DNA of 64,000 nt from Capnocytophaga sp. oral taxon 338 str. F0234 (GTDB taxonomy: Bacteria; Bacteroidota; Bacteroidia; Flavobacteriales; Flavobacteriaceae). Shown in pieces: positions 612 through 32,351 of this stretch (positions are counted from its first letter, which is position 1; each line of letters opens with the position of its first letter). The notes beneath the pieces were generated by a model. The model made no database searches. It was not told the DNA's origin and saw nothing but the letters and a program-made list of their open reading frames with translations. The DNA lies in NCBI RefSeq assembly GCF_000192225.1, contig NZ_GL872413.1, positions 615,751 to 679,750 of the forward strand, in the 5' to 3' direction. The position numbers and the translations under genes were made by a program.

Positions 612-787
612 ATTAAATGAAAAACGAAAAGTGAAAAACGAAAAATTCTTCACTATTCACTTTTCACCCACATACTCGCTCCCGCGACTTTACTGTTCAC
701 TTTTCACTATTCACTATTCACTATTCACTATTCACTATTCACTATTCACTATTCACTTTTCACTATTCACTGTTCACTATTCATAAC
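612..787. repeat. Composite intergenic repeat (arms + A module + heptamer tract)
   Basis: Left arm GTGAAAAACGAAAA-like (617-651), then ATTCTTCAC and heptamers, an A module at 665-695 (CACCCACATAC, then TCGC-TCCC-GCGA, then CTTTACT), then about a dozen heptamers of the form TATTCAC/TTTTCAC to 785. It occupies the gap between the DUF6291 gene and the LRR lipoprotein gene. The rest of 480-996 is AT-rich and holds no visible gene. Confidence 0.85.
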
Positions 788-996
788 TGCTTGGTATTTT
801 GTGTTTAACAAATAAGGAGTCTTAAGTCAGAATATATTTTTGTGGAACAACTAATTTCTTGAAAAGAATTTATATAAAAGTAATGATTAAGCTAAAAAAA
901 TATTTTTTTGATACTAAAAATATTAAATATTTATTAAAGTACTGCGAATTATTAAAAATAAGTTGTTATTTTGCACTCGGAACAAATTAAATAAAT

Positions 997-2280
997 ATGA
1001 GAAAAAGAACGATCACTTTTGTAGCTTTCACAATAATTACTTCTCTGGTAGGATGTAATACTCAAAGCGATGATGGTGTGGGTGAAAAACCAAGACCCAG
1101 CACTGAGAGTAGTATCTATTTTCGTGAAGGTGCTGCACATACTATACACATGGTAGAGAAAGAAGAACGCACCGTCCTTATTGATGGTGCTACAGATGCT
1201 TTTACTTTTACCGAAACTTCAGGAGAAGGAATCACTGTGAGTAAGCTCACCGCCCCTGCACGCTTGAAAATAAAGGCTAAATCTGTTGGAACATATCCGA
1301 TACTTCTTGCCGAAGGATCTAAAAAAGCTACTCTAAATGTAGTGGTAAACGAGCGTGATACAGGTTGGAAAAACGGAATCTTCACAATAGAAGATATTGA
1401 TGGAGATAAAACCGAAGAGAAATCCACAGGATATGTGGAAATTGAACTTCCTGCAGGTACTTACACTTATGATAGTAACTCTCTATTGCCAGAGAATGCA
1501 CGTGACCGCGTACAAGTACAAGTAATAGGAGAGAAAATAAGAGTAACGGCACTGAATCATTATGATGAAAATACGCCCATTACTTTTAAGGTTAAGAACC
1601 AAAAAAATCAGGAACGCACGGTAGTGATTAAAAGAGTTACTAAATTCTGGAGAACTGAAAGTAACGGTTATTTTCTTGTAGCCCTCTCCAATCCTATTTA
1701 TGTAACTAAGCGTAGCTTTGATGAACGTAGGACCCCTCCTAAAGTGCCTTATACAGTCAAGAGTGTTTATAATGGTGGAGGTAGTAGTTCTGTACAACAA
1801 GAGTTTTTGTGGAATAATCCTAAAATTACGAAGATAGACTTGAATAACATGGAAACAATCCAATCTTCATCTTTCATGAATTCTTCTAACCTGGAAACAA
1901 TCATAGCGGGTAAGGTAACTACAATAGAACATGATGCTCTTAAAGGAACAAAAATAAAAAAACTTGTTCTTCCTGAGATAACAAAAATACATGGAACTCT
2001 TCCCTCTACACTACAATATCTTACTTTAGGTAAAAAATTTACCTACATGTGGGACAACACTCTTAGAGGTACAGAGAATTCACTAATGGAACTTCGTATT
2101 GAGGTAACTACACCGGGACAAATAACATATTTTCCTCCCTATGGAGATCCTAACTATAAAATTATAGGAGAAAATAATACAGCAAAATTGCTGGTGCCCA
2201 AGCAAGCCCTTGAGGATTATAAAATACGTTTCCCTTGGATTACAACCCTTTTCAAAGGAGGTGTGGAGGGCTATGAATAA
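997..2280 (+). CDS. BspA-like leucine-rich repeat lipoprotein
   Basis: A 427-residue predicted surface or periplasmic lipoprotein. Residues 1-20 form a signal peptide ending in the lipobox LVGC, with the acylated Cys at 20. The middle is beta-rich without a family I recognise. Residues about 285-400 carry LRR_5/BspA-type units (ETIQSSSFMNSSNLETI, TTIEHDALKGTKIKKLVLP), and the C-terminus has the LLVPKQALEDYK segment typical of BspA-like lipoproteins in this phylum. Such proteins are usually implicated in adhesion or glycan contact; the specific role here is unknown. A weak TATTTTG promoter element lies near 966-972. The stop codon overlaps the first possible start of the next gene, suggesting one operon with the OmpA-like protein. 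Confidence 0.8.
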   Translation: MRKRTITFVAFTIITSLVGCNTQSDDGVGEKPRPSTESSIYFREGAAHTIHMVEKEERTVLIDGATDAFTFTETSGEGITVSKLTAPARLKIKAKSVGTYPILLAEGSKKATLNVVVNERDTGWKNGIFTIEDIDGDKTEEKSTGYVEIELPAGTYTYDSNSLLPENARDRVQVQVIGEKIRVTALNHYDENTPITFKVKNQKNQERTVVIKRVTKFWRTESNGYFLVALSNPIYVTKRSFDERRTPPKVPYTVKSVYNGGGSSSVQQEFLWNNPKITKIDLNNMETIQSSSFMNSSNLETIIAGKVTTIEHDALKGTKIKKLVLPEITKIHGTLPSTLQYLTLGKKFTYMWDNTLRGTENSLMELRIEVTTPGQITYFPPYGDPNYKIIGENNTAKLLVPKQALEDYKIRFPWITTLFKGGVEGYE

Positions 2281-2306
2281 TGTTGTTTAATAATAAAAAG
2301 ACTGAA

Positions 2307-3410
2307 ATGTACAAGATAAAATATATCCTTATTGCCCTTGTGGTGATACTTAGTAGCAGAATATTATCTGCACAAGATAATTATCGTCCTTGGCTTATTG
2401 GCGCAGGTGTCAGTACGGTTGATATGCGTGTACCTACCGATTTCACAGGTATGGTAAAGGATTGGTTTGGTTACCCAGATATGAATGTAGGCTTCCGTTT
2501 GGCAGCATCCCGATACCTAAGAAAAGGGATTACTACAGAGGTAGGATTTGCTTATGCCTCTATTACTCGCGATGAAAATTACTTTCGTGGAGAGGCAAGT
2601 ACTAAAGTGACTGGAAAATCATTTTTTGGAGCGGATGTGCGTGCTCGCTATCATCTGAATCGCCTCTGGGAAGGACTCCCTTGGCTTGATCCTTATCCAC
2701 AATTGGGACTGGGCATCTCCTCTATAGAAGGTAAAACCAAAGTAAACTTTATTGCAGGAGTGGGAGCGAATTTCTGGTTCACGGATGTGATAGGAGCAAA
2801 TGTACAAACCAGCTATCATCCTTCTCTCAAAGGTGGAATAGGAAGTGATTATTTTCAGTTGGGAGTAGGTGTGGTAGTTAAATTCCCTTTCAAAGCCCTT
2901 GAAGAACCCATTGTAGACCATGTAGAGCGTGAGAGATTACCCAAAATAAAGAAAGAACGAAAGCGTATTACAAAGGCACGTCCGATTACCCGTGTGGAAA
3001 CTCCCGAAGAACGTGAGGCTCGTACCATACGTGTAACTAAGGAAATTAATCTCTATGCGAAAACTATTCTTTTTGACCTTGATAAGGCTATTGTGAAAAC
3101 CCAAGCAGAATTTATTCTGGATAATATTGCCAAAATTATGCAAGAGAATGAGGATTTTAATTTCGTCATAGAAGGACATACGGATAATACAGGAACACCA
3201 GAGCATAACTTGCAACTCTCTCAAGAACGTGCCGATGCCATTAGAGCCTATCTTGTTAATAAAGGAATCAATAAGAAACGCTTGGAAGCGAAAGGCTACG
3301 GACTCTCTCGCCCATTGGAAAGCAACGATACCGAACGCGGACGTGAAATAAATCGCCGTGTGGAAATAAATGTTATTCCTGATGAGCAACACGTAGAAAA
3401 AACATTATAA
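2307..3410 (+). CDS. OmpA-family outer membrane protein
   Basis: A 367-residue protein in two parts. A signal peptide (MYKIKYILIALVVILS, cleavage near LSAQ) precedes a small beta-barrel of about 190 residues that alternates aromatic and polar residues. A charged linker (KIKKERKRITKAR) leads to a C-terminal OmpA peptidoglycan-binding domain with FDLDKAIVK, the conserved IEGHTDNTG, LSQERADAIRAYL and GREINRRVEI. It should anchor the outer membrane to peptidoglycan. I chose ATG 2307 because a frame-consistent start at 2280 would put a polar segment before the signal peptide. It directly follows the LRR lipoprotein and ends at a strong terminator. Confidence 0.88.
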   Translation: MYKIKYILIALVVILSSRILSAQDNYRPWLIGAGVSTVDMRVPTDFTGMVKDWFGYPDMNVGFRLAASRYLRKGITTEVGFAYASITRDENYFRGEASTKVTGKSFFGADVRARYHLNRLWEGLPWLDPYPQLGLGISSIEGKTKVNFIAGVGANFWFTDVIGANVQTSYHPSLKGGIGSDYFQLGVGVVVKFPFKALEEPIVDHVERERLPKIKKERKRITKARPITRVETPEEREARTIRVTKEINLYAKTILFDLDKAIVKTQAEFILDNIAKIMQENEDFNFVIEGHTDNTGTPEHNLQLSQERADAIRAYLVNKGINKKRLEAKGYGLSRPLESNDTERGREINRRVEINVIPDEQHVEKTL

Positions 3411-3465
3411 GATAAAATCTTTTCATAACATTATTGATTTTTTTGTTTAATGTGTTTGATTTCTG

Positions 3466-3497
3466 AAGCCCTTGAGGGATACTTCGGGGGCTTTTTT
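3466..3497 (+). terminator. Rho-independent terminator after the OmpA-like gene
   Basis: AAGCCC pairs with GGGCTT across an imperfect hairpin and is followed by a run of T. Confidence 0.8.
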
Positions 3498-3635
3498 ATA
3501 AAAATACAAGAGATCAACTTACAGAATCTCGCTTAATAAAAAAATGTTTTTTCGTAGAAAATAGAGTTTTTTTCATAATATTTTTTTTAATTGCTTTTTA
3601 ATTGAGGAGTTTCAATTAAGTTAATTGTTAAACAA

Positions 3636-3666
3636 ACAACTCCCAAAAACTTTTGGGAGTTGTTTT
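3636..3666. terminator. Second strong hairpin, terminator-like
   Basis: A perfect 13-base inverted repeat (ACAACTCCCAAAA, two-base loop, TTTTGGGAGTTGT) runs into TTTTATTA. It could terminate transcription on either strand. No gene ends here, so an unannotated short transcript may end at this site. Confidence 0.65.
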
Positions 3667-3755
3667 ATTAAGATGAAAAGGAAGTGAATATTTTGATATA
3701 ATTAAGTGTTTTTTCATAAATAAAGTGTTTTTATTGTTTTATTGTTTTATTGTAA

Positions 3756-3784
3756 GAGGCTCCTTTGAATAGGAGTCTTTTACT
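3756..3784 (+). terminator. Third terminator-like hairpin upstream of a lipoprotein gene
   Basis: AGGCTCCT pairs with AGGAGTCT, followed by TTTTAC. It lies about 60 bases before the lipoprotein ATG at 3843. The stretch 3411-3842 holds only this series of hairpins in AT-rich DNA. Confidence 0.6.
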
Positions 3785-3842
3785 ATCTAATCATTGGAAA
3801 AAAAACAAATCATTAATATATAATAACTTAAAAAGAAAAAAA

Positions 3843-4277
3843 ATGAAACATTATTTTATTTTAGTGCTAGTTGTATTAGCGGGAATTTTCACAGGTTGTT
3901 CTAAAAGCGACAGTGATAGTTCAAAAGGAGGGGTACTTACACCAGGTACGTATACCATAAAGGCAGTTATTACAGGAGGAGGTGTACTAAAGGATGGTAA
4001 AATGACCATTGATGTTGAATTAGGAAAAAAAGTAAGGGATTTGGATATTACTAATGATCCTGCACTGGCAAAAATGAATGGAAAAACAGAGTGGGAAGGA
4101 GATTATAAGATTGAAAGCTCTGTCCAAGTAACCATTCGTGCCATAAAACCTACGGAGAACTCTGTATTAACCCTTTATATTCTTAAAGGGAAAGATGTGG
4201 TCAGAAAGGATGAGTACAAAGGTAAAGGTAATCATGATGGACTGATAGGACATATCAGTATCAGATTACAAAATTAA
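3843..4277 (+). CDS. Small lipoprotein, unknown function
   Basis: A 144-residue predicted lipoprotein. The signal peptide MKHYFILVLVVLAGIFTGC has the lipobox FTGC (Cys 19), followed by a Ser/Asp-rich linker. The rest is a compact, probably beta-rich domain (PGTYTIKAVITGGG, TEWEGDYKIESSVQVTI, VLTLYILKGKDVV) that I cannot assign to a family. ATG 3843 is chosen because it starts the signal peptide; earlier in-frame starts fall in or just after a terminator hairpin. A composite repeat follows directly. Confidence 0.72.
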   Translation: MKHYFILVLVVLAGIFTGCSKSDSDSSKGGVLTPGTYTIKAVITGGGVLKDGKMTIDVELGKKVRDLDITNDPALAKMNGKTEWEGDYKIESSVQVTIRAIKPTENSVLTLYILKGKDVVRKDEYKGKGNHDGLIGHISIRLQN

Positions 4278-4295
4278 AAAGTAAAGAACATAGTT

Positions 4296-4391
4296 AAGTG
4301 AAAAACGAAAAGTGAAAAATGAAAAATTCTTAACTTTTAACTATTCACCCACATACTCGCTCACGCGACTTTACTGTTCACTATTCACTTT
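4296..4391. repeat. Composite intergenic repeat with A module
   Basis: Left arms GTGAAAAACGAAAA and GTGAAAAATG (4299-4325), then ATTCTTAAC and heptamers, then an A module at 4346-4376 (TCGC-TCAC-GCGA stem) and two more heptamers. Confidence 0.85.
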
Positions 4392-4482
4392 TTTGGTATG
4401 ATTTTTGTGATTTGTATAGTGAATTAATAAATCAATTAAGAATAATGAGTTATTAATCATTAATCATTAATTATTGATCACT

Positions 4483-5502
4483 ATGAATAGATTTTTTATA
4501 ATAGGGTGGGGACTTCTTTTGGGAGCCTGCCAGCAGGCTCCTAAAGAGAAAGTTGCTTCGCTCCCTGAAGGAGAACAAGTCTCCTTGAGCGACCATTATG
4601 TCATTGAAGGAAAAGCACCCGTAAGGGAAGGAGCGAGGGTTTTCCTATATGAATATAAGAACAGATCTTACCTGCCGGTGGACTCCACGGCACTTGATGA
4701 GCAAGGATACTTCCGCTTTGAAGGTAAGGCAGAAACGCCCTATATCTATGCCCTACGTCTCAATGGTACCGGAGGGCGGGCACATCTCTACTTAGAGAAT
4801 ACTCATATCTCCTTAGAACTCAATCCAGATTGGAACTTTAACTATCTCCATGCCAGCGAACAAGGACAGCTCTTTGAACGCTATAACCGTATGGCAGCTC
4901 ACGATATGCTGGACTTACCTAAGGAAATTAAGGAGGCACCTGACTCTCCTGCACTGGCTTATTTCCTTGCCCGACGTGCTTCCCTTTATGAATATCCTGA
5001 ACTTTTGCAGATGCGAAAAGCTCTTGACCCCTCTTTAAACACGAATCCCTATATACAGGAACTCGATGCCTTCATTGACCACCTGAGCAAGATACAACCG
5101 GGTATGGAGGCGCCTCAGGTAGACCTTCAGGATGCACAAGGCAGAAAGATTTCCCTGAGAGACTTCCGAGGAAAGAAGCTTCTGATTGACTTTTGGGCAT
5201 CATGGTGCCCTGACTGCCGACAGGCAAGCCCTAAACTTGTACAACTCTACAAAACCTATAAAAACAAAGGAGTGGAATTCCTTAGTATCTCCTTAGATGA
5301 CAACCTTGACCAGTGGCAAAAAGCTATCAAAAAAGATCAGCTGACTTGGTCTCAGGCATTAGCCAAAGGTGCTTGGAAGTCCGATGCTGCCACCACTTAT
5401 GCCCTTCGTTGGATTCCTACCTCCTTCCTCTTGGATGAGAGAGGGTTCATTATAGCACGCTCCATACACGTGGAAGATTTGGAAAAAGAAATGAAAAAAT
5501 AA
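4483..5502 (+). CDS. TlpA-like thioredoxin-fold lipoprotein (DUF4369 + thioredoxin)
   Basis: A 339-residue envelope thiol-disulfide protein. A lipoprotein signal (FIIGWGLLLGAC) is followed by a DUF4369-like N-terminal domain (about 35-180; YVIEGKAPV..., YIYALRLNG). The C-terminal AhpC/TSA-thioredoxin domain (about 200-335) has the redox motif WCPDC at 244-248 and the cis-Pro segment RWIPTSF. Family members reduce or shuffle disulfides in exported proteins. The lipobox Cys suggests anchoring in a membrane. Start ATG 4483 is preferred over an upstream in-frame TTG. The 70 bases upstream closely resemble those before the porin gene at 5695. Confidence 0.85.
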   Translation: MNRFFIIGWGLLLGACQQAPKEKVASLPEGEQVSLSDHYVIEGKAPVREGARVFLYEYKNRSYLPVDSTALDEQGYFRFEGKAETPYIYALRLNGTGGRAHLYLENTHISLELNPDWNFNYLHASEQGQLFERYNRMAAHDMLDLPKEIKEAPDSPALAYFLARRASLYEYPELLQMRKALDPSLNTNPYIQELDAFIDHLSKIQPGMEAPQVDLQDAQGRKISLRDFRGKKLLIDFWASWCPDCRQASPKLVQLYKTYKNKGVEFLSISLDDNLDQWQKAIKKDQLTWSQALAKGAWKSDAATTYALRWIPTSFLLDERGFIIARSIHVEDLEKEMKK

Positions 5503-5529
5503 TGATTAATGGTTAGTGATTAATGATTA

Positions 5530-5592
5530 TTTTTCACCCACATACTCGCTCATGCGACTTTACTATTCACTTTTCATTTTTCATTGTTCACT
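5530..5592. repeat. Composite intergenic repeat with A module
   Basis: An A module at 5535-5565 (TCGC-TCAT-GCGA) is followed by TATTCAC/TTTTCAT heptamers to about 5592. Confidence 0.85.
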
Positions 5593-6324: not shown

Positions 6325-6370
6325 GGAGCAATCATTTCTATTGTAATTCATAGTGTTTTAATATTTGAAA

Positions 6371-6612: not shown

Positions 6613-6748
6613 AGTGAAAAACAAATTAAATGAAAAACGAAAAGTGAAAAATTCTTCACTTTTAACTGTTCACTGTTTACCCACATACTCGCTCACGCGA
6701 CTTTACTGTTTATTATTCACTATTCACTGTTCATTTTTCACTGTTTTT
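6613..6748. repeat. Composite intergenic repeat with A module
   Basis: Left arms (6614-6652), ATTCTTCAC, heptamers, A module at about 6680-6708 (TCGC-TCAC-GCGA), then heptamers almost to the flippase start at 6760. Confidence 0.85.
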
Positions 6749-8239: not shown

Positions 8240-8414
8240 AACGAAAAACGTAGTTAAGTGAAAAACGAAAAGTGAAAAACGTAGTTAAGTGAAAAACGAA
8301 AAACGAAAAGTGAAAAATTCTTCACTTTTAACTGTTCATTATTCACTATTCATTATTCACTATTCACTATTCACTATTCACTGTTCACTTTTAACTTTTA
8401 ACTATTCATTATTT
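8240..8414. repeat. Composite repeat forming the dut leader
   Basis: Several left arms (GTGAAAAACGAAAA; AACGTAGTTAAGTG twice), then ATTCTTCAC and about a dozen heptamers (TATTCAC, TATTCAT, TGTTCAC), ending 1-4 bases before the dut ATG. The arms are inverse complements of the heptamers, so the leader can fold back on itself. Confidence 0.85.
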
Positions 8415-9873: not shown

Positions 9874-9930
9874 TTCACCCACATACTCGCTCACGCGACT
9901 TTACTTTTCACTTAACTACGTTTTTCACTG
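9874..9930. repeat. Composite intergenic repeat with A module
   Basis: An A module at 9876-9905 (TCGC-TCAC-GCGA) followed by TTTTCAC and CTTAACTACGTTTTTCAC. Confidence 0.8.
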
Positions 9931-20986: not shown

Positions 20987-21147
20987 TCACTTTTCACTTT
21001 TCACCCACATACCCAGCTGTGGGCACTCGCTGGCTATACTATTCATTTTTCATTTTTCACTATTCATTTTTCACTTTCCACCCACATACCCAGCTGTGAG
21101 CACTCGCTGGCTATACTATTCATTTTTCATTTTTCATTTTTCACTTA
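20987..21147. repeat. Composite intergenic repeat with two B modules
   Basis: Heptamers, B module at 21003-21040 (CCAGC, 11-base loop, GCTGG, then CTATACT), heptamers, second B module at 21080-21117, heptamers. An apparent forward frame across it is repeat translation only. Confidence 0.85.
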
Positions 21148-21181
21148 TTAGGGGGGTGGACACTTCTCCATCCTTTTTTTC

Positions 21182-21212
21182 TTGACATAGCTACAAGAAA
21201 GTTGTATCTTTG
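21182..21212 (+). promoter_or_regulatory. Promoter of the terminase gene
   Basis: TTGACA (21182-21187) and TATCTTTG (21205-21212), 17 bases apart. The resulting leader of about 140 bases is composite repeat. Confidence 0.7.
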
Positions 21213-21240
21213 CATCGTCATTAGAACAAAGTGTAAGTTT

Positions 21241-21354
21241 TTCATTAATCACTTTTCATTTTTCATTAATCACTTTTCATTTTTCACTTTCCACCCACAT
21301 ACCCAGCTGTGAGCACTCGCTGGCTATACTATTCATTTTTCATTTTTCACTTTT
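21241..21354. repeat. Composite repeat with B module, reaching the terminase ATG
   Basis: Heptamer variants (ATCACTTTTCATTTTTC twice), B module at 21293-21330, then CATTTTTC units running into the start codon at 21355. Confidence 0.85.
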
Positions 21355-22977
21355 ATGAACGCTCTTGCTTTAGACCTCCTTTGGGAAATTGCGCGGGGTG
21401 AGCCCAAGCAACAGGACAACAAAATTGTATACCCTTCACCACGTGAACAAATCGCCGCACTTTCGTTCCTTGCCAAGATAGAAGGCTGGGATGTCCCCGA
21501 AAAAAAGACTCCTGAACCCATAATCCCCGACTTTTCCGCTCTTAGTGAAGAGAAATGGGAGGCACTATTCTCTGCCTATCAAGCGCGTAAGCACTTGCTC
21601 TCCTTTACCGCTTTTACCTTCCCTTCTTTTTCGCCAGCTCCCTTTCATGAACGTTATTACCAGCTCCTGACGGATTTTGCCTTTGGAAAAGTTAAGAAAC
21701 TCATGATTTTTATGCCCCCTCAGCATGGCAAAAGTGAAGGAGCTACACGCCGACTGCCACCCTTCTTGCTCGGACGTAATCCTGAACTGAAAATTGCCAT
21801 TACCTCCTATAATACTACCAAAGCACGTAAGTTCAACCGAGAAATACAGCGTATTATGGATGACCCTACCTATCATCAACTCTTCCCAAAAACCATCCTT
21901 GCCTCCCGTAATATGTCCACTACCTACCTGCGCAATGCCGATGAGTGTGAGATTGTCTCCCACCAAGGAGGCTTCAAAACACTCGGGGTAGGTGGAGCTC
22001 TCACAGGGGAACCCGTGGATGTGCTTATCTTAGACGACCTCTATAAGGATGCCCTCTCCGCCTGGTCTCCTATTGTCAGGGAACATGTTGCCGACTGGTA
22101 CGATACGGTTGCCTCCACCCGACTGCACAATAACAGTCAACAACTTATCGTATTCACACGTTGGCATCCCGATGACCTCGCCGGAAGACTCCTCTCCCAC
22201 GAAGGTACCTACCACCCAAAGGATAATCCGCAAGGTTGGCAGGTAGTACTATATCCCGCTATTAAGGTGGGGGCTCCTTCTCCCTTTGACCCACGTACAG
22301 AAGGAGAACCGCTATGGGCGCAGCGCCATTCCTTGAATAAACTCCTCGCTACACGAGTTCGAAACCCACAGGTTTTTGAAAGCCTTTACCAGCAAAACCC
22401 ACAACCTCAAGAAGGGCTTATGTATGAGCCCTTTAACGAATATACGGACCTGCCCAATGATCCCTTGGCAATCACCAAGGCTTATGTGGATACTGCCGAT
22501 ACCGGTAGCGACTACCTCTGTGCTATTATCTATAAGGAAACTCCTCAAGCGAACTATCTCTTGGATATTCTCTATACGCAGGAACCTATGGAGTATACCG
22601 AACAAGCACTTGCCTCCCTGCTTACCCGCTATCAAGTGCAGGAGTGTATCATTGAAAGTAATAATGGCGGACGTGTCTTCGCCCGCAATGTGCAGGCACG
22701 TGCACTTAAGCAGGGAAATGACCTTACCCACTTCCGTACCTGTTACCAAACACAGAACAAGGCTACTCGTATCTTTACCTATTCCGCCGCAGTACAGCAC
22801 CTAACCCTTATGCCTCAAGGATGGAGAGAACGCTTCCCTGCCTTTGCCAAAGCCATCACCTCCTACCTCAAAGCCGATACGAACCCCCATGATGATGCCC
22901 CAGATGCGCTTACTGGAACCATAGAACATCGTAAAACCTTTAAGAAAAATAACCTCGCCGCACTCTTCAATAGATAA
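21355..22977 (+). CDS. Phage terminase large subunit
   Basis: A 540-residue DNA-packaging motor. The ATPase domain has Walker A PPQHGKSE (Lys126, Ser127) and Walker B LILDD (Asp227-Asp228). The C-terminal RNase H-like nuclease keeps its acidic residues: Asp379 in YVDTADTGSDY, Glu434 in IIESNNGG and Asp513/Asp514 in HDDAPDAL. All catalytic positions are intact, so it is not visibly decayed. However, no small subunit, capsid or tail gene accompanies it; the portal gene follows after a 175-base repeat tract. Its start is directly abutted by the repeat. Confidence 0.92.
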   Translation: MNALALDLLWEIARGEPKQQDNKIVYPSPREQIAALSFLAKIEGWDVPEKKTPEPIIPDFSALSEEKWEALFSAYQARKHLLSFTAFTFPSFSPAPFHERYYQLLTDFAFGKVKKLMIFMPPQHGKSEGATRRLPPFLLGRNPELKIAITSYNTTKARKFNREIQRIMDDPTYHQLFPKTILASRNMSTTYLRNADECEIVSHQGGFKTLGVGGALTGEPVDVLILDDLYKDALSAWSPIVREHVADWYDTVASTRLHNNSQQLIVFTRWHPDDLAGRLLSHEGTYHPKDNPQGWQVVLYPAIKVGAPSPFDPRTEGEPLWAQRHSLNKLLATRVRNPQVFESLYQQNPQPQEGLMYEPFNEYTDLPNDPLAITKAYVDTADTGSDYLCAIIYKETPQANYLLDILYTQEPMEYTEQALASLLTRYQVQECIIESNNGGRVFARNVQARALKQGNDLTHFRTCYQTQNKATRIFTYSAAVQHLTLMPQGWRERFPAFAKAITSYLKADTNPHDDAPDALTGTIEHRKTFKKNNLAALFNR

Positions 22978-23013
22978 AAAGTAAAGGATTAATTTTTAAT
23001 GATTAATAACTGT

Positions 23014-23152
23014 TTTTCACCCACATACCCAGCTGTGAGCACTCGCTGGCTATACTTTTCATTTTTCACTTAATTCCTGCTCACTCACACAACTTCCCAA
23101 GCTCCAAGTATTCGCTTGACTACATTTTTCACTTTTCATTTTTCACTTAACT
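23014..23152. repeat. Composite repeat with B and C modules before the portal gene
   Basis: B module at 23019-23056, heptamers, C module at about 23073-23124 (CAAGC, 11-base loop, GCTTG, then ACTACATT), then TTTTCAC units to the portal start. Confidence 0.85.
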
Positions 23153-24400
23153 ATGTTTTCATTTCTTCTTTCTCTTCCTGCCAATCAGGCAATAAAGATA
23201 TTACAGCGAGGGCGCATCACTCCTTTACCGGACACTAAAAAGGCACAGAAGGCTCTTAACCCTGCTCTCCATGCCGTTAACAATCCTGCCCTACGTCGGG
23301 ATAAGCTTGTCCATACCGATTCAGGCGAACACTTAGAGAAGGTTGCCCGTATTGCCCTGCCCCTGCAGGAGCTCATCATCAAGCGAGCAGTAGCTTTTCT
23401 CTTTGGTGAACCTGTAACTTACCTCGCCTCCCCACAGGATGATACTCAAAAGCAGATGCTCTCTACCATTGAGCATATCCTTACCCAAGCAAAGGAAAAT
23501 AGTCTGAACCGCAGGATTGCCCGTGCAGTCTTCTCCTTTGGGGAATGTGCAGAACTGTGGTATCCTGAACCGCTGAAGGAACCTTCTTCTGCCTACGGAT
23601 TCCCCTGCGCCTTCAAGCTCCGTTGTGCCCTCTTCTCGCCTGCCTTTGGGGATACTCTTTATCCTTATTTTAATCAGGTGGGTGATATGGTTGCCTTCTC
23701 TCGTGCCTATCGGGGTGAAAGGCTTCTCCCAGATCCTAATCTGCCTGCTGCCTTAGTGGATTACTTTGAAACTTATACCGCTGAAAATCACTACCTGTGG
23801 ATGCGTGAAAGCGATACTTATCACCTGGTGGAAGGATATCCAAAACCCATCTCTATTGGAAAAATCCCCGTAGTGTACGCCGCCCAAGAACATCTGGAAA
23901 CCGAACAAGTAGATCCGCTTATTGACCGACTTGAGCACCTGCTTTCTAACTTTGCCGAAACCAATGATTACCATGCCTCCCCTAAAATATTTGTTACAGG
24001 AACCATTAACGGATGGAGCCAAAAAGGGGAAGCCGGTGCGGTGATTGAAGGAGATAAGGATGCCTCCATGCAGTATATTTCTTGGCATAACGCTCCTGAA
24101 TCTGTCAAACTGGAGATGGATACCCTCCTTAGAATGATATACACTCTCACCCAAACTCCCGATATCTCCTTTGACAATATGCGAGGAATGGGAAACCTCT
24201 CTGGAGTTGCCCTAAAGCTCCTCTTCCTTGACGCTCAGCTTAAGGTACAGGACAAAAGAGAAATCTTTGACCAATATCTCCTCAGGCGCATAAGCATCCT
24301 CAAAGCCTATCTTGCTCAGATGCATACCCCTTGGCGAAAGGCTCTTGCTTCCTTAGAGGTCATCCCTCAAATACATAACCTCCTAAACGAAAATAAATAA
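23153..24400 (+). CDS. Phage portal protein
   Basis: A 415-residue portal-type protein resembling the SPP1 gp6 class: an N-terminal region with VHTDSGEHLEKVARIALPLQELIIKRAVAFLFGEPV, here noted as LQELIIKRAV and FLFGEPVTY; a core with KIPVVYAAQ and a C-terminal MRGMGNLSGVALKLLFLDA, which matches the portal clip/crown helix pattern. The portal forms the dodecameric ring through which the terminase pumps DNA. Together with the upstream terminase this is half a packaging module. The C-terminus is shorter than in many phage portals. Confidence 0.82.
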   Translation: MFSFLLSLPANQAIKILQRGRITPLPDTKKAQKALNPALHAVNNPALRRDKLVHTDSGEHLEKVARIALPLQELIIKRAVAFLFGEPVTYLASPQDDTQKQMLSTIEHILTQAKENSLNRRIARAVFSFGECAELWYPEPLKEPSSAYGFPCAFKLRCALFSPAFGDTLYPYFNQVGDMVAFSRAYRGERLLPDPNLPAALVDYFETYTAENHYLWMRESDTYHLVEGYPKPISIGKIPVVYAAQEHLETEQVDPLIDRLEHLLSNFAETNDYHASPKIFVTGTINGWSQKGEAGAVIEGDKDASMQYISWHNAPESVKLEMDTLLRMIYTLTQTPDISFDNMRGMGNLSGVALKLLFLDAQLKVQDKREIFDQYLLRRISILKAYLAQMHTPWRKALASLEVIPQIHNLLNENK

Positions 24401-24407
24401 ATCCTAT

Positions 24408-24531
24408 TTTTCACTATTCATCCACATACTCGCTCATGCGACTTTACTTTTCACCCACATACCCAGCTGTGGGCACTCGCTGGCTATACTTTTCATTTTT
24501 CATTTTTCACTTTTCATTTTTCACTTATTCT
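24408..24531. repeat. Composite repeat with A and B modules
   Basis: A module at about 24420-24447 (TCGC-TCAT-GCGA) directly followed by TTTTCAC and a B module at 24452-24490, then heptamers to the holin start. It is the only place where A and B lie side by side. Confidence 0.85.
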
Positions 24532-25065
24532 ATGTTTTTCTTCGTTTCTTTAATTCTCCTTTTCTATTCTGGAGAAAAAATTGCCTTGCGTGATAGGCTG
24601 TATTATTTAGTAATCACCTTGGTACATAGTACACCTCTGGTATTTGTAGGTTCTTATTTCTCTGCATGGTTACAGCTACATGAACCTTTTCTGTTGGGAA
24701 TAGGGGTTGCCTTGTTTTTGAATATGGCAGTAGGGGCGCTCTATCATCTGCACCAACATTCCTTTAACCTCTGGCAGTTTCTCTATAAGAATGCTAAGAT
24801 GATGGCAGTTATCTCTGTGGTTTATATCCTTTTGGCTTTGCTTAATGTCCCTTTAGCGAAAACAGCTAGTGGGGAACTCTTTGAAAGCACTATTGAACTG
24901 ATGACCCTCCTCTATCCTGTGAGCAAGGCGATTAAGCATATTTTCATCCTCACTCATGGAAAGTATCCTCCTCAATGGATTATCAAGGCGCTCTATAACT
25001 ACGAAAAAGAAGGCAAACTCAAGGAGTTCTTTAATATGAATAACGAAAAAATGAAAAGCGAATAG
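24532..25065 (+). CDS. Phage holin-like membrane protein
   Basis: A 177-residue protein with about three to four hydrophobic segments (MFFFVSLILLFYSG; YLVITLVHSTPLVFVGSYF; FLLGIGVALFLNMAVGALY; MMAVISVVYILLALLNVPL) and the cytoplasmic tail HGKYPPQWIIKALYNYEKEGKL that I associate with holin-type proteins in Bacteroidetes phages. The role would be membrane permeabilisation for lysis; no endolysin gene is adjacent. The last codons (NNEKMKSE) are translated from repeat arm sequence. ATG 24532 is preferred; earlier in-frame starts are in the repeat. Confidence 0.6.
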   Translation: MFFFVSLILLFYSGEKIALRDRLYYLVITLVHSTPLVFVGSYFSAWLQLHEPFLLGIGVALFLNMAVGALYHLHQHSFNLWQFLYKNAKMMAVISVVYILLALLNVPLAKTASGELFESTIELMTLLYPVSKAIKHIFILTHGKYPPQWIIKALYNYEKEGKLKEFFNMNNEKMKSE

Positions 25066-25238
25066 CTATTCACTTTTCATTTTTCACTCACTCACTCACA
25101 TACCCAGCTGTGGGCACTCGCTGGCTATACTCTTCGTTTTTCACTATTCACTTAATTCCTGCTCGCTTACACAACTTCCCAAGCTCCAAGTATTCGCTTG
25201 GCTACATTTTTCACTATTCACTATTCATTTTTCATTAT
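25066..25238. repeat. Composite repeat with B and C modules
   Basis: B module at about 25097-25131, heptamers, C module at about 25151-25205 (CCAAGC, 11-base loop, GCTTGG), then TATTCAC units. Confidence 0.85.
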
Positions 25239-27551: not shown

Positions 27552-27660
27552 GGATAGTCTATAAGGAAGCCATAATAGGGACATATTCTGAAAACTACTA
27601 AGGTTAAGCGTGCAAATTTACAAAAAAAATAGGAATCTTAAATCGTTCATCTTTATTTTG

Positions 27661-27668
27661 TATCTTTG
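27661..27668 (+). promoter_or_regulatory. TATCTTTG promoter of rlmN
   Basis: TATCTTTG at 27661-27668, 55 bases before ATG 27724. The leader holds a repeat arm pair. Confidence 0.65.
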
Positions 27669-27682
27669 CAGCCCCAATAGTA

Positions 27683-27723
27683 AGTGAAAAATGAAAAATT
27701 TTTCACTTTTCACTTTTCATTTT
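27683..27723. repeat. Minimal repeat arm pair in the rlmN leader
   Basis: AAGTGAAAAATGAAAAATT followed by TTTCACTTTTCACTTTTCAT, self-complementary arms ending just before the rlmN ATG. If transcribed it could base-pair over the ribosome entry region. Confidence 0.75.
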
Positions 27724-28755
27724 ATGAAGGATATCCGTGCTTTAAAGAAAGAAGAACTCCAAGCCTTTTTCCTCGCCCATGGAGAAAAAGCTTTCCGTGC
27801 TAGCCAAGTATATGAATGGCTCTGGACAAAAGGTGCCCACTCCTTTGACCAGATGACTAACCTCTCCAAAGAAACACGAACGCTGCTTGGGGAGCACTTT
27901 GTCATCAATCATATTAAGGTGGATACCATGCAGCGCAGTGAGGATGGCACCATTAAGAACGCTGTACGCCTCCATGACGGTCTCTATGTGGAATCCGTGC
28001 TTATCCCTACCGATACACGGATTACTGCCTGTATCTCCAGCCAAGTAGGTTGTAGCCTCAACTGTACTTTCTGTGCTACGGCACGGCTCAAGCGCATGCG
28101 TAACCTCTCTCCTGATGAGATTTTTGACCAAGTTCTCACCATTGATCAGCAAAGCCGCCTTTACTATGCACGTCCCTTGCGCAATATCGTATTTATGGGC
28201 ATGGGGGAACCCCTGATGAACTATCCCAATGTGATCAAGGCTATCGAACGCATTACCTCTGAAAAAGAAGGTCTTGGTTTCTCCCCAAAGCGCATCACCG
28301 TCTCCACCTCTGGTATCTCCAAGCTCATCCGTAAAATGGCGGATGACAGGGTCAAGTTCAAGCTCGCTGTATCCCTACACTCCGCTATAGAACAAACACG
28401 CAACTGCATTATGCCCTGGACGGTTAATTTCCCCCTTACAGAACTCCGAGAGGCACTCCAGTACTGGTACCAGCATACCAAAAGCCGGATCACTTATGAG
28501 TATGTGGTCTGGAAAGGAGTTAATGATACCCTCAAGGACATAGAAGCCCTGGTCGCCTTCTGCCGCTTTGCTCCTTGTAAGGTGAACCTCATTGAGTATA
28601 ACCCTATTGACGATGGAGCTTTCCTCCAAGCCGATGAAAAAATCCTATTATTATATAAAAAGAAATTAGAAGAAGCAGGAATCACTACCACTATCCGCTA
28701 TTCACGGGGTAAGGACATCGATGCCGCCTGTGGACAGCTCGCTAATAAACAGTGA
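27724..28755 (+). CDS. rlmN: 23S rRNA (A2503-C2)/tRNA methyltransferase
   Basis: A 343-residue radical SAM enzyme that methylates C2 of A2503 in 23S rRNA and A37 in some tRNAs. The SAM cluster motif C-x3-C-x2-C is at Cys110, Cys114 and Cys117; the methyl-carrier Cys336 lies in DIDAACGQL. Further signatures are FMGMGEPLMN and RITVSTSGI. ATG 27724 (MKDIRALKKEEL) fits the family; a longer reading frame would start in the repeat arms. Its last 69 bases, 28689-28757, are duplicated exactly at 30043-30111. Confidence 0.95.
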   Translation: MKDIRALKKEELQAFFLAHGEKAFRASQVYEWLWTKGAHSFDQMTNLSKETRTLLGEHFVINHIKVDTMQRSEDGTIKNAVRLHDGLYVESVLIPTDTRITACISSQVGCSLNCTFCATARLKRMRNLSPDEIFDQVLTIDQQSRLYYARPLRNIVFMGMGEPLMNYPNVIKAIERITSEKEGLGFSPKRITVSTSGISKLIRKMADDRVKFKLAVSLHSAIEQTRNCIMPWTVNFPLTELREALQYWYQHTKSRITYEYVVWKGVNDTLKDIEALVAFCRFAPCKVNLIEYNPIDDGAFLQADEKILLLYKKKLEEAGITTTIRYSRGKDIDAACGQLANKQ

Positions 28756-28757
28756 AA
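28689..28757 (+). repeat. 69-base direct repeat, copy 1 (rlmN 3' end)
   Basis: It starts CACTATCCGCTATTCACGGG, ends at GTGAAA, and includes the rlmN stop. It is identical to 30043-30111; the intervening and second-copy unit is 1354 bases. Confidence 0.95.
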
Positions 28758-28847
28758 TAAGAGAGTAGAGCAAATAGAAATAAGAAAACTAAAAATGTTA
28801 GTAGACTCCTTTCTGAATTCTTAAAATTCTAACTAAAACAAAAGAAG

Positions 28848-29975
28848 ATGATTAATAAAACTACCATTGAAACTATTAAAACTGCCATCTTAGAAAGTCA
28901 ATATAAAGCGGCTAAAGAGGTCAATGCTATACAATTATCATTATATTTTTCCATAGGAAAATACGTTTCAGAGAATACCCGTAAAGGTTTTTGGGGAACA
29001 GGTGCTTTAGAGTATATTAGTGAACAATTGCAATGTGAACTACCAGGACTTCGTGGATTCTCAGCAACAAATCTAAAGATGATGCGTATTTTTTATGAAG
29101 AATGGGCAAATAATTTATTATCAGATAATTATAATTCGTCACCCAAGAGTGACGAATTAACTTCTATTTCTCAAAATATATATACAGCAGATGCTATTGT
29201 CAGATTTTCACAGATATCAAACTATGGTGAGGTTATTGCTAACTATTTTTTGAACATTAGTTTCACTCATCATAAATATATTATAACGATGGTAAAAGGG
29301 ATAGAAGAACGCTTGTTTTATATTGAACTAGCAGCAAAAGAATCTCTTTCCGTACGTGCTTTGCAACAAGCTATTCGTTCCAATGAATACCACCATAAGG
29401 GAACTATGCCTAATAATTTTATACAAGCTTTGTCTGCATCCCAGCAAGCACTTAAAGCTATAAGGATGTTCAAGGATGAATATTTACTTGACTTCATTAA
29501 TATAGAAGCACTTGGAGCACGTGATATAGAGGAAATAGATGAACGTGTAGTAGAGCAGCAGATAGTTCAAAATATCAAACATTTTATCATGACTTTTGGT
29601 CGTGATTTCGCTTTCTTAGGAAATCAATACCCAATAGAGGCTTTAGGACATTTGCATTTCATAGATCTCCTATTTTACAATAGAGAACTTTCCTGCTTGG
29701 TAGCTATAGAACTTAAAACGGGTACTTTCAAAAATGCCTATTTAGGACAATTAAATGCTTACTTAAATATATTAGATGATTTTATCCGAAAACCCAATGA
29801 AAATCCTAGTATAGGGATCATTCTCTGCAAAGATGCTGATAAAACTTATGCAGAATATATGATACGTAGTTATAATAAACCTATGGGAATAGCTACTTTT
29901 AAAACTGCTGATGAGATGCCTGAACCACTGCGTAAGGCACTACCTAATATAGAGGAACTTAAAAAATTATTGTAA
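28848..29975 (+). CDS. DUF1016 PDDEXK nuclease-domain protein (YhcG-type)
   Basis: A 375-residue protein with the DUF1016 N-terminal domain (YFSIGKYVSENTRKGFWGTGALEYI seen as SIGKYVSEN and WGTGALEYI; LRGFSATNLKMMRIF) and a C-terminal PDDEXK nuclease core: FAFLGNQYPI, HFIDLLFYNR (Asp), CLVAIELKTG (Glu-x-Lys), LGQLNAYLN. YhcG-type genes are frequent in mobile and defence contexts and often travel near restriction systems. The gene is AT-richer than its rlmN neighbour, is bounded on the right by an exact copy of the rlmN end, and stands alone, which suggests acquisition. Confidence 0.87.
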   Translation: MINKTTIETIKTAILESQYKAAKEVNAIQLSLYFSIGKYVSENTRKGFWGTGALEYISEQLQCELPGLRGFSATNLKMMRIFYEEWANNLLSDNYNSSPKSDELTSISQNIYTADAIVRFSQISNYGEVIANYFLNISFTHHKYIITMVKGIEERLFYIELAAKESLSVRALQQAIRSNEYHHKGTMPNNFIQALSASQQALKAIRMFKDEYLLDFINIEALGARDIEEIDERVVEQQIVQNIKHFIMTFGRDFAFLGNQYPIEALGHLHFIDLLFYNRELSCLVAIELKTGTFKNAYLGQLNAYLNILDDFIRKPNENPSIGIILCKDADKTYAEYMIRSYNKPMGIATFKTADEMPEPLRKALPNIEELKKLL

Positions 29976-30017
29976 AGTCATAAAATAAATCATTAGCAAC
30001 AATTTAATGACATAAAA

Positions 30018-30047
30018 AATTGTAGTTACAAGAAGGTAACCTCACTA
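30018..30047 (+). pseudogene. Fragment of an LRR gene at the duplication junction
   Basis: The bases AATTGTAGTTACAA, then GAAGGTAACCTCA, would read NCSYKKVTSL; the intact LRR lipoprotein gene has NCSYNEVTSL at 30551-30580, sharing 14 identical bases at the start. The fragment runs into the second rlmN end copy within a shared TCAC-ATCCGCT-like stretch. Confidence 0.55.
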
Positions 30048-30111
30048 TCCGCTATTCACGGGGTAAGGACATCGATGCCGCCTGTGGACAGCTCGCTAAT
30101 AAACAGTGAAA
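30043..30111 (+). repeat. 69-base direct repeat, copy 2 (rlmN 3' end)
   Basis: It is identical to 28689-28757 over 69 bases, including the rlmN codons for RYSRGKDIDAACGQLANKQ and its stop, but lacks the rest of the gene. It marks the right boundary of the DUF1016 insertion. Confidence 0.95.
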
Positions 30112-30138
30112 AATATTCAAAAATACAAAAAAATTACC

Positions 30139-30146
30139 TAACTTTG
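30139..30146 (+). promoter_or_regulatory. TAACTTTG promoter of the LRR lipoprotein gene
   Basis: TAACTTTG at 30139-30146, shortly before the lipoprotein start. Confidence 0.55.
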
Positions 30147-30211
30147 CATCGGTAAATTACATAATTAGGTAATCCATACAACAACGAATGGACAATATTA
30201 AAAAAGTAATC

Positions 30212-30910
30212 ATGAATAAAATAGCAATCTTTAAAAAAGGAGTGCGAGAACTCCTTGTAGCAACTATAGCACTGGTAGGATGCTCTAAAAATGATAACAC
30301 TACTCCTAACCCTGTCCCTGATTCTCCTAAGGAAACAGCCCCCTATATCCAGTTGACTACTGCTCGAGAGAAAGGAAGCCAGATACAACTAACCATAGAG
30401 GCTCCCAAAGCCGATAAAAAAGATATTTGGATAGACCTTAATAATAATGGAGTGTATGACAATGGCATTGATGTACGCTTGAGTGCTGCTACAGCAAAAT
30501 ATACTCTTAAGGGAAGTACTCTGAGAGTCTATGGAAAACTAACCCTTTTCAATTGTAGTTACAATGAGGTTACCTCCTTGGAGGTAACTCACCATCCGCT
30601 TCTCGAAAGGTTAGATATGAGTCATAATAAAATCAAAGAGATAGACTTAAGCAAAAATACCGCCCTTACTTACTTGAAAGTTTCTGATTTACCTCTAACG
30701 GGTTTAGACCTTAGGGCTAATAAAAAACTAAAAGAGCTACGCTTTAACCGCACTCTCTCTGGAGAAAAACTAAAAAGATGTGTGAATACACTACACGAAA
30801 ATGGAGGGGGAACCATTTATATGCACAAATCTATTACCGATAGCGAAAAAGAGCGTGCAACCATGCAAATCTTGAAGAAAAAGAAGTGGAGCATAGGCAA
30901 TTGTGAATAA
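30212..30910 (+). CDS. Leucine-rich repeat lipoprotein
   Basis: A 232-residue lipoprotein with signal MNKIAIFKKGVRELLVATIALVGC (lipobox LVGC) and a linker of Asn/Pro. The body starts with PYIQLTTAREKGSQIQLTI, then a KKDIWIDLNNNGVYDNG segment, and Bacteroidetes-type LRRs: LTLFNCSYNEVTSLEVTHHP, LERLDMSHNKIKEIDLSKNT, YLKVSDLPLTGLDLRANKK. An upstream ATG at 30188 adds eight residues; ATG 30212 better fits the signal peptide. Fragmentary homology to it occurs at 30018-30047. Confidence 0.8.
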   Translation: MNKIAIFKKGVRELLVATIALVGCSKNDNTTPNPVPDSPKETAPYIQLTTAREKGSQIQLTIEAPKADKKDIWIDLNNNGVYDNGIDVRLSAATAKYTLKGSTLRVYGKLTLFNCSYNEVTSLEVTHHPLLERLDMSHNKIKEIDLSKNTALTYLKVSDLPLTGLDLRANKKLKELRFNRTLSGEKLKRCVNTLHENGGGTIYMHKSITDSEKERATMQILKKKKWSIGNCE

Positions 30911-30942
30911 CTTGATAAACTCGTATAAGGATGAATAATTAA

Positions 30943-31028
30943 TTTTTCACTTTTCACTATTCACCCACATACCCAGCTGTGGGCACTCGCTGGCTATACT
31001 TTTCATTTTTCACTATTCACTTTTCATT
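30943..31028. repeat. Composite repeat with B module overlapping the lpxH 3' end
   Basis: Heptamers, B module at 30963-31000, then TTTTCATTTTTCAC/TATTCAC heptamers. The lpxH stop and its last codons (KNEK) lie within the repeat. Confidence 0.85.
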
Positions 31029-31784
31029 TTTTACTAGTTCCAGCTTTTTTCCATCGAATACAGCGTAGGTGTAGTAGTGTATCCAGTCTCCTGTGTTGAT
31101 GTAAGTGGCTCCTCCACCCAGGTCTATGGTCATGGGTAAGTGCCGATGTCCAAAGAGAAAATAGTCATAATGCTTCGTCTCAAGCTTGCGTTTGCAGTAT
31201 TGTACCAGCCATTCTTTGTCCGCTCCTAAGAAGTGTATATCCTCAACCCCTGAGATAAGCTTATTCTCCACCGACAGGTATTGTCCCAATCGCACCCCTA
31301 TATCGGGATGTAACCACCGAAAAAGCCACTTACAAAAAGGATTGGTAAATACTTTTTTCATTCGTTTGTACCCTTTATCGCCAGGACCTAGCCCATCACC
31401 ATGTCCTATGAGGAAAAGCTTGTCATGACAGCTTACCTCTATCGGATGCCGATATACAGGAATATCCAGTTCCTGCTCAAAATAATGATCCATCCATAAG
31501 TCATGGTTCCCTACAAAGAAATAGATGGGGATTCCACTATCCCTTAGCTGAGCTAGCTTGCCTAAAGTACGCACAAAACCTTTAGGGACAACGGTTTTAT
31601 ACTCAAACCAAAAGTCAAACAAATCCCCCAATAGGAAGATTGCCCCTGCATCTGTCTTGATCCTATCGAGCCATGCCACGAACTTTGCCTCTCGTGGACG
31701 ACTCTCTTGGTAGGTAGGAGCTCCCAAATGATTATCGGAAGCAAAATAGATTTTCTTATCTTCAGCAAGAGGTAGGTGTAACAT
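31017..31784 (-). CDS. lpxH: UDP-2,3-diacylglucosamine diphosphatase
   Basis: A 255-residue calcineurin-type phosphoesterase of the lipid A pathway (LpxH), which hydrolyses UDP-2,3-diacylglucosamine to lipid X. Metal-site motifs in order: FASDNHLG (D-x-H), LLGDLFDFWFEY (GD), VGNHDLWMDHYF (GNHD), LIGHGDGLG (GH) and FGHRHLP (GHxH). The C-terminal residues are encoded by repeat sequence. It is preceded on this strand by tRNA-Phe about 215 bases away. Confidence 0.92.
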   Translation of the reverse strand: MLHLPLAEDKKIYFASDNHLGAPTYQESRPREAKFVAWLDRIKTDAGAIFLLGDLFDFWFEYKTVVPKGFVRTLGKLAQLRDSGIPIYFFVGNHDLWMDHYFEQELDIPVYRHPIEVSCHDKLFLIGHGDGLGPGDKGYKRMKKVFTNPFCKWLFRWLHPDIGVRLGQYLSVENKLISGVEDIHFLGADKEWLVQYCKRKLETKHYDYFLFGHRHLPMTIDLGGGATYINTGDWIHYYTYAVFDGKKLELVKNEK

Positions 31785-31935
31785 TTGATTTAATAATTTA
31801 ATTAAGGTAAAAGTTAAGAAAAAAACGCTTCTCGAGGGATCTCCCAGTTTTTCTTGGAAGGAGAAAGTAATAGGCGTTTAGGTGAATTCATAAAAAATAG
31901 AATAGGTTGGTTTTTATGAAGGATGGGGTATCTAT

Positions 31936-31968
31936 GAAAAAAGAACTACCTTTCACAAAGTAGTCCTT
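31936..31968 (-). terminator. Terminator of the tRNA-Phe transcript
   Basis: On the reverse strand GGACTAC-TTT pairs with AAA-GGTAGTTC (one bulge), followed by TTTTTTC. Confidence 0.75.
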
Positions 31969-31998
31969 TCCTAATTCATCAAACTCTAAATCTAATAG

Positions 31999-32071
31999 TG
32001 GTGCCTCCAGGAATCGAACCAGGGACACAAGGATTTTCAGTCCTTTGCTCTACCAACTGAGCTAAGGCACC
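31999..32071 (-). tRNA. tRNA-Phe (GAA)
   Basis: A 73-base cloverleaf on the reverse strand. Acceptor GGTGCCT/AGGCACC, D-arm GCTC-AGTTGGTA-GAGC, anticodon stem AAGGA/TCCTT around CTGAAAA (anticodon GAA), T-loop TTCGATT. CCA is not encoded. Confidence 0.97.
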
Positions 32072-32090
32072 ATTGGTTTTAATTCGGGTG

Positions 32091-32098
32091 CAAAGGTA
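32091..32098 (-). promoter_or_regulatory. tRNA-Phe promoter (TACCTTTG)
   Basis: Reverse-strand TACCTTTG followed by GCACCCGAA, the same GC-rich post-promoter sequence seen before tRNA-His. A shared discriminator fits stable-RNA promoters under growth-rate control. Confidence 0.65.
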
Positions 32099-32295
32099 AA
32101 ACTTTTTTTCTGCTCCCACAAGTGTTTTTTTAAAAAAATAAAAATATTTTCTCTTGAAAACTTACTACTTTGTAAACCAATATCTTATAAAAGTATTTTT
32201 TGTAATAAACAAAAATTTAACACCCTTAACATCCTTTTTCCTTGTATAACTCCTAAAAAAGTTAGATATTTGCAAGCCGTAATTTAGGTGGATAG

Positions 32296-32351
32296 TGAGT
32301 AGTGAATAGTCAAAGGTCACTTTTCACTTTTCATGATTTCATTTTTCACTT
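32296..32351. repeat. Short composite repeat before the outer membrane gene
   Basis: GTGAGTAGTGAATAGTC followed by TTTTCACTTTTCATG and TTTTTCACTTACAG; heptamers run to the start of the gene at 32357. Confidence 0.6.

Follow-up and report, generated by a model that had tools for sequence, protein, structure and literature searches.

We analysed a 64-kb stretch of the genome of Capnocytophaga sp. oral taxon 338 str. F0234 (G000; 2.55 Mb in 29 contigs), namely positions 615751–679750 of contig C1 (NZ_GL872413.1), which we call the window. It carries tandem arrays of heptamers and, within or beside these arrays, very short hairpin modules of three types, A, B and C. All 15 modules placed by a preliminary description of this DNA (six A, seven B and two C) were recovered at those positions, and every one is on the + strand. 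The A module at 669..693 reads CACATAC-TCGC-TCCC-GCGA-CTTTAC; the other copies have a TCAC loop (4350..4374, 6682..6706 and 9880..9904) or a TCAT loop (5539..5563 and 24423..24447, the latter immediately upstream of a B module). The TCGC/GCGA stem is constant in these six copies, as had been noted, but only inside the window, as A stems TCGT, ACGA and TCAC occur outside it. The B module (CACATAC-CCAGC-11 nt-GCTGG-CTATAC, stem and loop length as described in seven of seven copies) is found at 21006..21039, 21083..21116, 21296..21329, 23022..23055, 24456..24489, 25097..25130 and 30966..30999, with genes converging on both sides of the last copy. Its core, CACATACYCNGCT, was observed seven times in the window, compared with 0.01 expected. 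The two C modules are ACACAACTTC-CCAAGC-11 nt-GCTTGA-CTACAT at 23087..23125 and ACACAACTTC-CCAAGC-11 nt-GCTTGG-CTACAT at 25169..25207. They had been considered to differ from B by one exchanged base pair. The 11-nt loop length is indeed common to both types, but the loop sequences differ, as do the flanks (ACACAACTTC...CTACAT versus CACATAC...CTATAC), and the CCAAGC/GCTTGG stem has one A-T pair more than that of B; the outermost pair is lost in the first C copy (GCTTGA). The reported segregation of A modules at 0.6–10 kb from B and C modules at 21–31 kb applies to the window only, where A is nevertheless present at 24423. Elsewhere in the same genome A and B are intermingled, for example in tandem at 1,409 kb.

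The window contains 75 tandem pairs of the heptamer TNTTCAY, compared with 0.04 expected from shuffles. Merging pairs fewer than 100 bases apart yielded 17 array tracts. On the + strand, arrays enclose an A module (647..784), two B modules (20991..21144), one B module upstream of a terminase gene (21253..21350), an A and a B module upstream of a holin-like gene (24408..24524), a B and a C module (25067..25235) and one B module (30944..31027), while the array at 23056..23146, upstream of a portal gene, surrounds a C module. Arrays devoid of modules are found upstream of dut (8333..8388, + strand) and at the rlmN start (27684..27720, no strand assigned). Several arrays reach near the starts of the dut, rlmN, terminase, portal and holin-like genes. 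The sequence GTGAAAAACGAAAA occurs at 631, 4298, 8258, 8289 and 10757 of the window. The two B-C composites that hold both C copies can be aligned for the most part; one heptamer and scattered substitutions set them apart. Long flanks are common to the B modules at 21083 and 21296. Part of the local copy number is therefore due to duplication; local duplication accounts for part of the copies, not for the family. We also noticed an extra hairpin, CCTCA-12-TGAGG, beside heptamer arrays at 45135–45156 and 45270–45291, which belongs to a segment duplicated locally where a small open reading frame (ORF) ends. It does not figure in the preliminary description and is missing from the matches of covariance model R1 described below.

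The modules are not restricted to this locus. A search of the own genome with at most one mismatch gave 26 places, of which 19 cluster within 586–647 kb (about 61 kb) and the remaining seven are at 1.34, 1.41, 1.71, 2.17 and 2.18 Mb. The same pattern was found 11 times in G012 and zero to two times in each of the 18 other Capnocytophaga genomes; the reversed pattern, used as a control, matched neither G000 nor G012 and had no more than two matches elsewhere. The final module-form search of G000 and G012, which takes in CCACATAC, gave 42 rows, three of which are false matches (578417 in G000; L077 43892 and L080 13141 in G012). We then used two covariance models, R1, built on 19 sequences from three genomes, and R2, a core model built on 60 distinct cores. 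Scoring was limited to 150 candidates in each genome, which makes the counts minimum values. With R1 (expectation value, E<=0.5), at least 62 matches were obtained in G001, 45 in G000, 36 in G007, 32 in G013, 28 in G010, 27 in G011, 26 in G009, 15 in G012 and 10 in G018; at least 10 weak matches were also present in the module-poor G016, and zero to six in the remaining Capnocytophaga genomes. With R2 (E<=0.01), the same nine module-rich genomes have at least 88 (G001), 44 (G011), 40 (G010), 39 (G009), 24 (G013), 22 (G007), 21 (G000), 21 (G018) and 19 (G012) copies each. Seven of the other eleven have at least two to six, and four have none, so that the hairpin is present in 16 of 20 Capnocytophaga genomes. 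No R2 match was found in 20 genomes of other genera or families, with the same number of candidates scored per genome. In a family-wide sample of 299 genomes, scanned with R1 under stricter filters and with the best 19 candidates per genome scored, two genomes had matches at E<=0.001, both from Capnocytophaga (G000 and G010). The matches listed for G010, a single contig, and for the large contig of G013 are spread along the genome. Searches of sequence collections gave one plasmid match and one viral contig carrying one module, and none in the collection of phage records; one of five matches in assembled contigs (L061) is a chance match in other sequence. The plasmid, NZ_CP027233 (L306), belongs to Capnocytophaga sp. 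oral taxon 864 and harbours one copy, with type VI secretion genes on one side and Clp genes on the other. It is 28 kb long, is typed as mobilizable and carries type VI secretion genes, and it is possible that it serves as a vehicle for the module between species. We also considered whether the region had been imported from Capnocytophaga sp. oral taxon 863, but the modules there have other loops and only 11 pattern hits were found, so that this organism is not an evident donor.

Conservation of the stem, already pointed out for the window, extends across the genus as covariation. Among the R1 matches, 106 cores, 65 of them distinct, keep the 21-nt spacing; A modules, 6-bp stems, short loops and partial matches were excluded from this set. 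The alignment comprised 60 of the 65 distinct cores; two mis-spaced rows were omitted, as were three CCAGC rows with every pair intact. In these 60 cores, 93.3% of the stem cells are paired, a value that none of 500 shuffles reached, and there are 37 two-sided changes, compared with 11.1 in shuffles (0 of 500 as high) and at most five in slid versions of the alignment. Two-sided changes affect four of the five stem pairs (matched by 20 of 500 shuffles), with nine further pair types (12 of 500). The stem types found with their complements are CCAGC, TCAGC, TCGGC, TCCGC, TTAGC, TCTGC and TAAGC, and six-pair stems are represented by CCAAGC and, in a weak G008 match, TCAAGC. All 25 copies of G001 are fully paired, with three different stem types. 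In G010, four of 13 copies are intact at the usual spacing, as well as one with a 10-nt loop, as expected for ageing copies. The stems were intact in all nine cores seen more than once and in 37 of the 54 seen once, which is a weak difference (one-sided Fisher p 0.047; 63 distinct cores, the same two mis-spaced rows being dropped). Of 280 paired cells, just 3 are G-T. Read on the reverse strand, the loop has G as its first base in 58 of 60 cores and A as its last in 59, and both hold in 57. Folding also favours this strand, with mean values of -8.94 versus -6.73 kcal/mol for the forward strand with RNA parameters, and -4.85 versus -3.52 with DNA parameters; the helix is part of the best fold of 49 of 60 cores on the reverse strand and of 39 and 41 on the forward strand. 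This covariation points to a hairpin that does form and that counts in the copying or the keeping of the repeat. It is a real hairpin, with the look of one formed in DNA.

Modules have been gained or lost at given sites, as shown by three comparisons of filled and empty copies. The first concerns three repeats of 1.3 kb at 1,338, 1,409 and 1,710 kb of the own genome (L063, L022 and L064), which are 94–98% identical and carry a gene for a DUF6291/DUF7833 protein and an array with modules. Each has a B module, and the copy at 1,409 kb has 33 additional bp, consisting of an A module and one heptamer, between TTTTCAC and TTTC. By eye, the segment at about 21140–21215 of the window resembles the promoter-side end of this repeat. 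The second is a dispersed repeat of about 170 bp found with a module in G011 and G018, and without one in three G018 copies over the stretches compared; the module replaces six other bases between two CAC of the empty copies. In the third, two neighbouring repeat copies of the viral contig differ by the presence of a module in one and of four bases in the other. In each of these cases a repeat unit is altered at its edge, where the module either takes the place of a few bases or is added to them. G018 and G011 also have two modules in common at apparently orthologous places, one of which has drifted in sequence.

The flanking tandem unit, judged by eye, differs between species while the core is constant. 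The 7-mers resemble TTTTCAC in G000, G007 and G012, TTTTACC in G010, and TGTTACC in G011 and G018; G001, G009 and G013 have 11-mers, for example TCCTTCGCTCA or TCCTTCGTTTA. A few copies, from G007, G009, G011 and module-poor species, are embedded in other sequence. In two loci of module-poor species (L138 and L139, from G019 and G006), for instance, the hairpin lies within CTCAGCCTGACA-type sequence with no heptamer array. Another hairpin, GTGCGGCTCGCAC, is dispersed with its near variants alongside modules in several species and in the viral contig (L171, L173, L205, L221 and L305); no copy was found in the window with up to one mismatch.

These repeats are a real family of very short hairpin-forming DNA, genus-wide in Capnocytophaga, with evidence for gain or loss. 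The B-type core is about 32–34 nt long and consists of CACATAC, a 5–6-bp stem, an 11-nt loop, the other arm and CTWT(AC); shorter forms have a 4-bp stem with a 4-nt loop (A, 25 nt) or a 6-nt loop (G007). The modules are dispersed over many loci and species, lie between genes in the own genome, covary on both sides of the stem and are present or absent at matching sites. We consider it probable, at roughly 60%, that they are mobile, non-autonomous DNA repeats of very small size that depend on their hairpin, found here only in Capnocytophaga. The hairpin would act as single-stranded DNA, on the strand reading AAAG/ATAG-stem-G...A-stem-GTATGTG, and might form once the GTATGTG strand is exposed in replication or repair. 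Copying into a new site could then proceed by strand (template) switching or through an enzyme acting in trans. The tandem arrays of 7-mers or 11-mers, specific to groups of species, would offer short homology as landing sites, and would themselves lengthen and shorten by slippage. Such repeats would be mobile or selfish DNA, with no need for a host function in cis.

Several points weigh against mobility of this kind. The filled and empty pairs fit gain or loss alike, and some copies are carried inside larger repeats. With the first 19 sequences alone, covariation was near that of shuffles, 35 of 500 of which reached the score, and RNAalifold predicted no pairs on the forward strand. The percentage of paired cells is biased upwards because the stem is part of the search model; moreover, the copies are related to one another. 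Furthermore, template switching can yield two-sided changes in one step without selection, according to the relevant part of PMC8794818, and covariation alone thus does not show selection for an RNA. Lastly, no candidate enzyme was found, and reverse transcriptase, tried as a partner, is present in three of nine module-rich and four of eleven module-poor genomes, with no link to copy number.

Another account would do without mobility and selection, combining heptamer slippage, local duplication and the correction of quasi-palindromes by template switching. It finds support in the B-C composites, duplicated with an indel of one heptamer, and in the ability of template switching to make compensatory changes (part of PMC8794818). 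Nevertheless, modules occur on numerous contigs in many species, and also on a plasmid and a viral contig, and the same core is found within unrelated flanking repeats. This calls for dispersal beyond local slippage, and we regard the account as unlikely. Mobility might instead be that of repetitive extragenic palindromic (REP) or REPIN elements moved by a REP-associated tyrosine (Y1) transposase (RAYT), as the preliminary description had suggested with the term 'REP-like mobile DNA'. Like these elements, the modules are short intergenic palindromes (intergenic placement being taken from the own genome only) that can fold into a hairpin, and a tetranucleotide on one side is left unpaired. Subfamilies with alternative complementary stems are known among GTAG REPs (in the section of PMC3733652 that deals with them), a feature also of the Capnocytophaga modules. 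The unpaired tetranucleotide of the modules is GTAG in only four of the 60 distinct cores, and mostly AAAG (36) or ATAG (17). The Y1_Tnp profile (PF01797) had no match in the nine module-rich genomes and was found in two of the 20 genomes overall, both module-poor; a Y1 gene might have been missed in the own genome, as it holds some N stretches. REP inverted doublets are tied to RAYTs (PMC3116915, in part), in contrast with the adjacent copies among 132 R1 matches, 13 pairs of which are direct and two inverted. Since Y1_Tnp was not detected, adjacent copies are mostly direct and GTAG is rare, these are not typical REP/RAYT elements, and an origin in that system appears improbable. What stands of the earlier proposal is the mode of working, in view of the filled and empty sites, rather than membership of the REP/RAYT group.

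Other explanations invoke a function in the host, and depend on how the modules are placed. In 155 kb around and including the window, where coding density is 86%, 20 of 23 modules lie outside ORFs; the ORFs that overlap the remaining three begin inside arrays or cross them, and we judged these to be spurious. The 23 modules are from 28 R1 matches; two A modules and three partial or chimeric matches were left out (L012 18589, L013 5944 and three in L015). Relative to the neighbouring genes the modules are mixed in orientation: 13 have the same and five the opposite orientation, four lie between divergent genes and one between convergent genes. Structured RNA leaders or terminators acting on the neighbouring gene would fit the arrays near the starts of the dut, rlmN, terminase, portal and holin-like genes and the covarying stems, and have a parallel in the similarly placed TAACTGA heptamers, for which translational control has been proposed in Beggiatoaceae (PMC4679880, in the part concerned). 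The arrays may possibly affect expression of nearby genes, judging from their position. However, the RNA leader put forward in the preliminary description is not favoured, because of the mixed orientation, including modules between divergent and converging genes, the rarity of G-T pairs and the lack of a matching Rfam family, the only matches in the window at the gathering score being two tRNAs. Three weak matches were obtained in eight module loci of other species, all below gathering. In addition, within the roughly 170 nt that follow an lpxH-like gene, compared in 20 genomes, a module is present only in G000 and G013, and of different types. Together with the mixed orientation, this speaks against any constant role tied to a particular gene. 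Intrinsic terminators are not supported either, as a scan for loops of 3–8 nt gave 13 terminator-like sites in 20.9–31.1 kb (8.2 expected), and only one of them is a C hairpin. We consider this class of explanations improbable. The least probable in our view, and very much so, is a binding site for a host chromosome protein, with its position under selection. The 19 of 26 own-genome pattern hits within about 61 kb, near a change in GC skew and with raised GC, speak for it; on the other side, no clustering is apparent among the matches listed for G010 and the large contig of G013, and four Capnocytophaga genomes have no core-model match and seven have at least two to six. A signal of the replication strand or terminus was considered on account of an apparent change of orientation near 610 kb, where the GC skew changes, and was dropped because orientation is mixed at 600–610 kb, dnaA is about 0.9 Mb off and the matches listed for G010 and G013 show no clustering.

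Mobile hairpin repeats of this kind have a possible precedent in cyanobacteria. Elhai and colleagues reportedly described in 2008 small dispersed repeats (SDRs) of Nostoc and relatives, said to be hairpins of 21–27 nt with compensatory changes, located inside tandem heptamers and also in small transposon-like repeats, with evidence of recent mobility. We know of no enzyme for the SDRs. The Capnocytophaga modules share with the SDRs, as these are described, the very short hairpin with compensatory changes, the embedding in tandem heptamers or small transposon-like repeats, and presence or absence at matching sites through gain or loss. They differ by the phylum, by a B-type core of about 32–34 nt versus the reported 21–27, and by arrays of both 7-mers and 11-mers. 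On our best reading, the modules resemble Nostoc SDRs most, likened by their described design rather than by sequence. They would work in the manner of cyanobacterial SDRs and of REPs, although no REP transposase was found for them. Heptameric TAACTGA direct repeats, known from Cyanobacteria, Beggiatoaceae and five Bacteroidetes, are likewise intergenic, in tandem, often at start codons and sporadic across phyla (PMC4679880, in part). The heptamer sequence differs, and the passages of that paper on these repeats do not name Capnocytophaga among the organisms or describe hairpin modules; no TAACTGA tandem repeat was found in the window with one mismatch allowed. Miniature inverted-repeat transposable elements are also non-autonomous and dispersed, but are about 100–400 bp long with terminal inverted repeats (PMC3116915, in part), whereas the Capnocytophaga unit is a single hairpin of 25–39 nt. 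A literature search by title among open-licence papers found nothing on these repeats, a weak test where the papers returned lacked the word Capnocytophaga; stricter searches gave only papers whose titles concern other subjects.

The surroundings of the modules have further features of their own. The stretch at about 570–680 kb of contig C1 has a GC content of 0.39–0.45, versus 0.33–0.39 in other sampled stretches (one N-rich stretch excluded). Heptamers and modules are concentrated there, and the local GC skew turns from plus to minus near 615 kb. This GC-rich region could possibly be a large import or a mutational peculiarity. At 21355–25065 of the window, genes for a terminase large subunit, a portal protein and a holin-like protein follow one another, surrounded by host-type genes. 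The leaders of all three contain modules or heptamers, and this segment is possibly a phage remnant. The last ~67 bases of rlmN (from 28691) recur at 30045–30111 of the window, and a gene for a DUF1016/YhcG-type nuclease (28848–29975) lies between the two copies, as if its insertion had duplicated the end of rlmN.

A broader proposition, which we put forward tentatively and with clearly less confidence than mobility in Capnocytophaga itself, is that such modules represent a still active class of tiny mobile DNA of 25–39 nt. Its chief requirement would be a DNA hairpin whose loop, on one strand, runs from G to A; it would spread by replication strand switching into arrays or by a non-Y1 enzyme, and elements of the same kind would have arisen in Cyanobacteria and Bacteroidota. 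If true, this would be among the smallest general classes of mobile DNA, and Capnocytophaga would provide a second phylum in which very short hairpins spread in tandem heptamers and no transposase is known for them. The material for study comprises many copies in several species, with filled/empty pairs. Because G-T pairs are scarce and the loop differs between the strands, it can be tested whether the hairpin is one of DNA or RNA, and whether an enzyme or a polymerase is at work. Arrays and modules near gene starts, such as those of dut and rlmN, may also give rise to variation in expression and to indels among oral bacteria.

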